A stretch of DNA of 64,000 bases from Haloarcula rubra (GTDB lineage Archaea > Halobacteriota > Halobacteria > Halobacteriales > Haloarculaceae): the NCBI RefSeq assembly GCF_019599465.1, contig NZ_RKLR01000005.1, forward strand, positions 62,001-126,000, read 5' to 3'. Below the pieces are notes generated by a model. It did not search any database, was not told where the DNA came from, and worked only from the letters and a program-made list of their open reading frames with translations. Positions within the stretch are counted from its first letter, which is position 1. Every line of letters starts with the position of its first letter. Shown one piece after another: positions 27,169-29,425 of the stretch. A program made the position numbers and the translations under genes.

Positions 27169-27789
27169 ATGGGAGTCCTCGAGAACAAAGCCCGCGCGCG
27201 GACGTTCTACAAGTATCTCTCGAAGGTGTACGATACCATCAACCCATTCATCTGGGACGAGCGGATGCGTGACGAGGCCATCGAGATGCTGGACCTGACC
27301 CCCGAGGACCGCGTTCTGGACGTCGGCTGTGGCACCGGCTTCGCCACCGAAGGACTGCTCCAGCACGTCGACACCGTGTACGGACTCGACCAGAGCCCCC
27401 ACCAACTCTCGAAGGCCTACCAGAAGTTCGGCAAACACGGGGACGTGCGGTTCCACATGGGCGACGCCGAACGGCTCCCGTTCAAAGACGATAGCTTCGA
27501 CGTCGTCTGGTCGTCGGGCTCTATCGAGTACTGGCCCAACCCCGTCGACGCGCTCGAAGAGTGTCGCCGCATCACGAAACCCGGCGGCAAGGTTCTCATC
27601 GTCGGCCCGGACTACCCCAACTCCTCCATCTTCCAGAAGGTTGCCGACGCCATCATGCTGTTCTACGACGAGGCGGAGGCCGACCGGATGTTCGAGGCCG
27701 CCGGCTACGAGGAGTTCGAACACCACATCCAGCAGTCCCGACCCGGTAGTCCGCGGGCGATTACGACCATCGCCGACGTGCCGGAGTAG
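27169..27789 (+). CDS. SAM-dependent methyltransferase (UbiE/MPBQ-type)
   Basis: A 206-residue class I methyltransferase. Motif I is VLDVGCGTGFATEGL (around residues 47-61), the acidic end of strand 2 is VYGLDQS, and the ADRMFEAAGYEEFEHH end is near the C-terminus. GDAERLPFKDDSFDVVWSSG is typical of UbiE/MenG and methylated-quinol enzymes. A role in methylating menaquinone or another isoprenoid quinone is the best guess. The N-terminal NKARARTFYKYLSKVYDTIN fits that group. The TATA-like GAATTATGA is about 30 bases upstream. The last 18 codons are echoed in a second copy 173 bases downstream. Confidence 0.88.
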   Translation: MGVLENKARARTFYKYLSKVYDTINPFIWDERMRDEAIEMLDLTPEDRVLDVGCGTGFATEGLLQHVDTVYGLDQSPHQLSKAYQKFGKHGDVRFHMGDAERLPFKDDSFDVVWSSGSIEYWPNPVDALEECRRITKPGGKVLIVGPDYPNSSIFQKVADAIMLFYDEAEADRMFEAAGYEEFEHHIQQSRPGSPRAITTIADVPE

Positions 27790-27814
27790 GCCGATTGGCC
27801 GACGTGACTGGCCC

Positions 27815-27854
27815 GAGACGAGCGAAGCGAGTCTCGCTTTTTCGCCCACGTTTT
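27815..27854 (+). terminator. Hairpin plus two T tracts after the methyltransferase
   Basis: GAGAC (27815-27819) can pair with GTCTC (27831-27835), with an inner GC pair and tandem G-A mismatches. It is followed by TTTTT (27838-27842) and a second TTTTT (27851-27855 region). This resembles an intrinsic or T-rich archaeal terminator. A second perfect hairpin, GGTGGCC/GGCCACC, follows at 27865-27881. Confidence 0.6.
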
Positions 27855-27905
27855 TGCCGTGAGTGGTGGCCGCAGGCCACCCGAACGGGAAAAAAGGTGG
27901 TCTGG

Positions 27906-27962
27906 CAGTCTCGGCCGGGCAGTCCACGCGCGATTACGACCATCGCCGACGTGCCGGAGTAG
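27906..27962 (+). pseudogene. Orphan 3' end of a second methyltransferase copy
   Basis: The 19 codons here encode QSRPGSPRAITTIADVPE and a stop, the same peptide as the end of the intact methyltransferase (27733-27789). The first nine codons differ at seven silent third positions, while the last 11 codons are identical in DNA. Similarity continues about 20 bases past the stop codon with a small insertion, but stops abruptly at 27905 upstream. It is therefore the cut-off tail of a diverged homologue and not a recent tandem slip. Confidence 0.75.
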
Positions 27963-28026
27963 GTCGACGTTGCCGATTGGTCGGTCTCGTTCATCGGGCA
28001 GTTACGACCCGGTTACCAACCGGTGA

Positions 28027-29271
28027 CTACCGTGCCGGCACGGTGACCGACGTCCGGGTGCCGTCGGCGGCCGTCACTGTCACCGTGTACTGCCCGCGCG
28101 GTTCGACGGTCCAGAGGACGCCGTCGGCCCCGCTGGCACCGACGCGGTGGCCGTCGACGTGCACGGTCACTCCGACCGGCGACCCGGTCTCGTTGTTCGT
28201 GGCCGAGACGTAGAGGGGGCCGGTCTGATACGCTCGCTGGACCTGCAAGCGGAGCGACCCGTTGACCGCCTGCTGGGAGTCGGTGGGCTGGACGGTCGCC
28301 AACTGGCGGTGCTGGAGTTCGTAGAAGACGTTCGTCGTCCCGCCGTCGAGGTAGGCAGTGAGTCTGCCGGTGGGGTGATTGGCGGTCAGTTCGTAGATAC
28401 CGGAGGTGCCGTAGTACGTGAAACTCGGCCGCTGGCGCTCGTAGAGCCACGTGTACAGTTCCGAGGCGCGGTTGTCGGCCAGGTCGAGACGGTTCGTATC
28501 CTCGGAGGTCCCCTCGACGAACTGGTCGGGTTCCGTCGGTCGCCGCTCGCTGCCGAGATACGTCTCGCGGACGTACGCGTCGTCGTCGACGGTCGCGAGC
28601 ATGTACCCCTCCGTGGCGCCTTCGACGTACACGACGCTCGGGTCGGCGGCACCCGCGACGCTCGCGCGCACCTGCTCGCTGACCGGCCCGTGCAGTAGCT
28701 GTAAGTTCCCCTCGACGTTTCGCAGACGAGTCTCCATGCCGCTGGTCATCGAGTAGTCGGGTTCGAGTTGCTGGGCCGACGAGATGCGGTCGAGCGTGTC
28801 GAGCAGGACGCGTGACTCCGCGTCGACGAGCACGCGGACGCGGAGCAGTTCGCTCTCGGATATCTCGCCCGCGGCGTAGCGACGGACGGCCGTCTGCTGG
28901 CGTCGTTGGAGCTGGGCCGCCTTGGTTTCGGCGTCCGACATCGTTTCGCGGACGAGTTGCCGTCGTTCGAACTCCGAGTCGGCACGCCGGAACCGCTTCT
29001 CGAACGCCGACGCCTCGTGACGCTGGTGGAGCTGTCGGGACCCGGCCGCCACCGCCGTGCTGACGTCGACGCCGGTCTCGTTGAACCCGGACGACTGAAC
29101 CTCGCTGGAGGGGATGGCGAGGTGGTTCGTCGTGTTCGGAATCGGAGTTATACGCGGAGAGACTGACGTCTCCTGAACCGACTGCGCCGGCGTCGCGTCC
29201 CAGGCAGCGGCGGGGGCCGCCGTCGCACTGGCCAACAGCAGTGCGACGAGGAGGGCAGGGAGGACTCGCAT
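28027..29271 (-). CDS. Secreted haloarchaeal protein of unknown function (DUF7096-like)
   Basis: A 414-residue protein with a signal peptide (residues 1-24, ending AAPAAAW). A long helical region with the pattern SAFEKRFRRADSEFERRQLV and AETKAAQLQRRQQTAVRRYA follows at about 90-170. The C-terminal third is beta-rich and ends in an Ig-like module (SPVGVTVHVDGHRVG, then WTVEPRGQYTVTV). N-glycosylation sequons are present. I recall related haloarchaeal proteins under DUF7096/DUF7094. The ATG at 29271 is used; two GTG codons precede it. The gene is divergent from a membrane-anchored regulator, with 154 bp between them. Confidence 0.72.
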   Translation of the reverse strand: MRVLPALLVALLLASATAAPAAAWDATPAQSVQETSVSPRITPIPNTTNHLAIPSSEVQSSGFNETGVDVSTAVAAGSRQLHQRHEASAFEKRFRRADSEFERRQLVRETMSDAETKAAQLQRRQQTAVRRYAAGEISESELLRVRVLVDAESRVLLDTLDRISSAQQLEPDYSMTSGMETRLRNVEGNLQLLHGPVSEQVRASVAGAADPSVVYVEGATEGYMLATVDDDAYVRETYLGSERRPTEPDQFVEGTSEDTNRLDLADNRASELYTWLYERQRPSFTYYGTSGIYELTANHPTGRLTAYLDGGTTNVFYELQHRQLATVQPTDSQQAVNGSLRLQVQRAYQTGPLYVSATNNETGSPVGVTVHVDGHRVGASGADGVLWTVEPRGQYTVTVTAADGTRTSVTVPAR

Positions 29272-29425
29272 CACCACCGGGTTGATGGTGAGAGTACAAA
29301 AATCCCCCTATTGCTCTAGCACGGATAGACGGCAGAGAGGCCGCGAAACGTTTCAAAAAGGGTGCTGACGTTTTATTCTCGGATGGAAAGGGTTTTGCCG
29401 ACGGACTGAGCATCCACGTGTGGAA

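Follow-up and report, generated by a model that had tools for sequence, protein, structure and literature searches.

Duplicated gene ends beside an interspersed hairpin family in Haloarcula and other haloarchaea

A methyltransferase gene end encoded twice

The window analyzed here, a stretch of 64,000 nucleotides from Haloarcula rubra, contains a methyltransferase gene whose 3' end is encoded a second time a short distance downstream. We asked how such a copy arises and why the two versions differ at silent sites. The features of the locus are as follows, where X denotes the gene end, X' its copy and E the element between them.

27169-27789, + strand: class I SAM-dependent methyltransferase gene, 206 aa (Pfam Methyltransf_11, UbiE-like)
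27690-27761, + strand: probable recombination tract, with silent sites like those of genomes G013 and G022 and not like those of G016 (from sliding identity; borders approximate)
27732-27789, + strand: X, functional 3' end of the methyltransferase gene, 18 codons and stop, first member of the duplication
27814-27843, + strand: hairpin CGAGAC..GTCTCG and then CTTTTTC (T5C), which together resemble a terminator for the methyltransferase gene
27837-27900 (64 nt), + strand: E, interspersed hairpin element, CTTTTTCGCCCACGTTTTT..hairpin..AAAAAAGGTGG, with T-runs on both strands
27846-27900: palindrome proper of E
27901-27904, + strand: junction TCTG, 4 unmatched nt between E and X'
27905-27962, + strand: X', truncated duplicate of the gene end, 18 codons and stop
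28027-29277, - strand: DUF7096-DUF7094-Fn3_arc gene, convergent, with a transcript expected to arrive at E from its right side

A sequence-only reading of this locus had claimed that the same 18-residue peptide and stop codon are encoded twice, 173 nt apart, and this was confirmed. Positions 27732-27794 and 27905-27967 form a direct repeat with 56 of 63 positions identical (89%) and that start-to-start spacing; its alignment score is 91, compared with at most 23 for shuffled flanks, and both X and X' code in frame for QSRPGSPRAITTIADVPE followed by a stop. The reported silent divergence of the upstream codons also stood, with corrected counts: six codons rather than seven differ silently, all among the first eight (X/X' pairs TCC/TCT, CGA/CGG, CCC/CCG, GGT/GGC, CCG/CCA and CGG/CGC), and the identical block comprises the last 10 codons and the stop. 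The seventh mismatch of the 63-nt repeat lies 3' of the stop codon. A terminator-like hairpin and a second hairpin are indeed present between the copies, but the second (27846-27900), which had been described as perfect, contains internal mismatches and a bulge and belongs to a repeat family. The score of the methyltransferase itself lies below every NCBIfam equivalog cut-off shown.

A hairpin family with duplicated flanks

A search of the same genome with the DNA between the two copies returned seven further places matching over about 65-90 nt, all with a common layout: a host segment, a hairpin, E and a copy of the host segment. A covariance model detected 18 copies of E in this genome (E-value ≤0.001), and almost every well-assembled genome among 32 from Haloarcula holds 11-34 copies; incomplete assemblies hold fewer, and one fragmentary genome has none. 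Under a stricter limit than that of the Haloarcula count, E was found in 129 of 195 sampled genomes of the order, representing 44 of 66 genera. The copies are 62-84 nt long and consist of CTTTTTCGCCCACGTTTTT, a variable hairpin and then AAAAAGGTGG. Their termini, CCACGTTTTT..AAAAAGGTGG, are terminal inverted repeats, and T-runs occur on both strands (CTTTTTC, and CCTTTTTC opposite). Among 113 distinct copies, 98.7% of cells were paired and 13 of 19 pairs showed two-sided changes (0 of 500 shuffles); since the alignment was fitted to the covariance model, the covariation count leans toward that model, and slid controls fall to 45-59%. E is an interspersed, structurally constrained hairpin family. 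Rfam returned nothing above gathering score for the window stretch and four further loci, and no match to E was found in phages; haloarchaeal plasmids gave three matches at about 80%. No description of E was found in the literature searched by title and abstract, which covered only a minority of subscription papers.

The immediate flank was duplicated, over 19-235 nt, in about 70 of 103 strong copies of E examined, with scores of 38-380, where the cross-locus 95% null is 27. With few exceptions among these cases, the duplicate starts 0-9 nt after the right end of E (GGTGG, in AAAAAGGTGG). Removal of near-duplicates left 62 loci, at which the median duplication length was 56 nt and the median identity 95%. 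Mismatches at these loci cluster next to E, affecting 34-66% of loci at positions +1 to +4, 15-21% at +5 to +8 and 3-7% thereafter; the peak lies at +4, with G and C common at +3 and +4. Many of the duplicated targets are the ends of housekeeping genes, including ileS, gyrA, pheT and purM (names assigned from reading the translated ends), and the same duplication was found outside Haloarcula beside E at ileS, gyrA and other genes. For about a third of E copies a duplication was not detectable; such copies often lie immediately next to the stop of a convergent gene, and in some the left part is longer and consists of hairpins. These data showed that gene end X, one or more hairpins, E and X' form a recurrent structure at dozens of unrelated genes.

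The sequence-only reading had proposed either replacement of the resident gene by an incoming allele or decay of a tandem paralogue. The latter is not supported: at the loci examined, orthologous or unrelated, a short end of the gene, never the whole gene, stands duplicated next to the hairpin. Neither history serves as a full explanation, because the duplication accompanies E at many genes. Allele replacement accounts neither for the presence of a second tail nor for the start of the copy immediately behind the same hairpin in the roughly 70 cases above; we assign the duplication to E.

Several related arrangements were observed. The longer left form extends about 200 nt upstream of E and reads GGCCGGGAGCG..CGGGGAAGGGCAGG..AGCATACCG, hairpin, GGTTTCAC, hairpin; it occurs at L092, L114, L139, L148, L020, L033, L035 and L038, at several places in one genome, and gave no Rfam match in the loci tried. 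Inverted pairs of E enclose 0.7-0.9 kb at L225 (G205:C1, 911036 and 911759; also 629425 and 630366), and no recognizable transposase ORF lies inside the first pair, which was for that reason set aside as a candidate autonomous element. In Halorubrum aquaticum (L311, L314) the methyltransferase end stands in a 25/25 tandem copy with no E, and at L177 and L178 tandem or partial tail repeats follow the 3' ends of ileS, again with no E.

Orthologous loci and silent divergence

The sequence-only reading had proposed aligning the locus across strains. Of 30 species compared at the methyltransferase locus, 14 have E together with X' and one a decayed instance; the others have none or E alone. In G014, the methyltransferase tail appears by eye to combine the X and X' types of its relatives, as excision by recombination would leave. 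At pheT, E and X' occupy one junction in six scattered species, and neither is present in most of the others read. Halorientalis persicus carries E and a 50/51 duplication at the methyltransferase gene with a different starting codon. Tandem arrays of the form X-E-X-E-X' occur at L005/L006, L093, L118 and L227. The orthologous loci thus show gain and loss of E, and the tandem arrays show amplification. No insertion of E was seen between near-identical strains. In a genome of another family (G100, L224), ileS carries E at the junction used in Haloarcula, GGTGG-CAGC-GAGATGCGCAAGGA.

The tandem arrays, as well as a partial second E after X' in L121, would also be expected if E were a pre-existing terminator between convergent genes at whose right end replication slippage or breakage had duplicated the gene end, the hairpin and E, with later loss of the outer E. 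The location of many unduplicated copies directly against a convergent stop codon agrees with this scheme as well. However, most empty sites lack any E, and the outer E would have to be lost repeatedly, so that we consider such an origin quite unlikely.

We then turn to the silent differences. At 49 gene-end loci, X and X' differ at first, second and third codon positions in 28/33/149 cases (71% third), with p=1e-28 for a null of one third and 6e-10 for a null of one half if the differences are taken as independent, although orthologous loci share history. This third-position share is greater than expected from decay of the downstream copy alone. In the window, the methyltransferase is over its full length most similar to the G016 gene, yet the first 30 nt of X, the part in which it differs from X', equal the G013 tail exactly; the same stretch of X' is at most 90% identical to any species. 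Because the gene is G016-like overall but its end matches G013, X was probably rewritten by recombination with another lineage, X' representing the earlier state. At ileS of G023 and G024, the tree places X' among the ileS genes of relatives and puts X in a different clade, that of the G004/G030 allele. The allele replacement suggested by the sequence-only reading would accordingly keep a role in the silent divergence, and exchange between functional alleles is partly supported as its source by the tract in the window and by ileS. Recombination between haloarchaeal species is frequent and gene conversion is efficient (PMC4500145, PMC8223754). G016 also has a second methyltransferase paralogue (G016:C3:440650-441255), 68% identical, a level not seen in the other congeners.

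The foreign X and native X' at ileS, the third-position bias and the imported tract in the window would likewise follow from a ragged gene replacement, in which an incoming allele arrives with its own end, terminator and E, is joined by homology on the left and illegitimately on the right, and leaves the resident end behind. The duplication would then be a by-product of gene transfer and not of E insertion. We judge this unlikely: X and X' match fully or almost fully in many pairs (63/63 in L117, 59/59 at pheT of G004, 36/36 in L110), which would require duplication of the same allele or later conversion, and the right junction is nearly always the same hairpin end, at the same codon across species.

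Origin of the duplication and known systems

We also searched for an enzyme that might act on E. Reverse transcriptase (PF00078, RVT_1) was found in 0 of 32 Haloarcula genomes, and retro-insertion or a diversity-generating retroelement was rejected on that ground. A reverse-transcribed, SINE-like element would share the fixed right end of E, its left part of several sizes and the variable length of the duplications; given the same lack of RVT_1, we hold this to be highly improbable. The IS1634 transposase (NF033559) gave no match above cut-off in the 32 genomes, with weak partial matches in 15, and was rejected as a partner. Derivation from a TnpB omega-RNA or IS200-605 element was rejected as well, no E lying near the ten TnpB (OrfB) loci read in the H. 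rubra genome, which are unrelated to E. No autonomous transposon with E-type ends was seen at the E loci read.

The explanation we favor, and think probably correct, is that E is a terminator hairpin that inserts with a long target duplication, after which homologous recombination spreads, removes and multiplies it. The motif T5C terminates transcription with 95% efficiency in Haloferax volcanii (PMC7237163), and because T-runs stand on both strands of E, its natural reading is that of a bidirectional terminator, which would serve neighboring genes on either side. E appears to be mobile: together with a variable left hairpin stretch, it would be inserted beside or just after a gene end, of which 19-235 nt would be duplicated. 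The unit could then be deleted or multiplied when X and X' cross over, and the flanking homology could bring E from species to species at the same site. Import of a foreign allele would change X and not X', leaving X' as a fossil of the earlier allele. At the locus studied here, a G013-like allele would have taken the place of the upstream portion of X as far as about 27761, X' retaining the older sequence. The empty orthologous sites at pheT and at the methyltransferase locus favor insertion. Against it, the first four nt after E mismatch X (in 34-66% of loci) where a clean target duplication would match, and about a third of copies have no detectable duplication. The negative outcome of the enzyme searches above and of the comparison of near-identical strains likewise counts against it. 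We propose more tentatively that E may represent a class of mobile haloarchaeal terminator hairpins not described before. These would insert at gene ends with long target duplications, spread between species via self-duplicated homology arms and leave earlier alleles behind as fossils next to core genes.

If this explanation is right, a structured hairpin family resides at core gene ends across the sampled haloarchaeal order, accompanied by long duplications not accounted for by any partner enzyme found in this analysis. Every X' would be a small fossil of a former allele, and these loci would record gene exchange between species as well as gene conversion.

Among known systems, certain fungal mitochondrial elements supply a gene with a new 3' end, the old one remaining downstream. 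The order of new gene end, element and old gene end, with silent divergence between the two, resembles that described here, whereas E is a short hairpin insert with no homing endonuclease gene. Like archaeal T5C and hairpin terminators (PMC7237163), E combines hairpins at gene ends with an adjacent T5C on each strand; it differs from them in being a specific conserved family with an adjoining duplication. E resembles MITE and REP elements in being short, non-coding, palindromic, interspersed, mostly located at gene ends and present in low tens of copies, and it shares with MITEs the terminal inverted repeats. However, its target duplications are variable (19-235 nt) instead of short and of fixed length, and they reach into coding sequence; no partner transposase was found at the loci read. 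IS1549/IS1634 generate direct repeats of 8-514 bp at their insertions by a mechanism that was not explained (PMC2266710). E shares such long, variable direct repeats, and its ends (CCACGTTT.. and CCACCTTT..) are compatible with the weak C-----YT consensus for the ends, although E is only 62-84 nt long and non-coding. Insertion with a long target duplication, for which these elements are a precedent, fits best for the origin of the duplication, and if it is right the long direct repeats of IS1549/IS1634 would gain a second, more numerous example.
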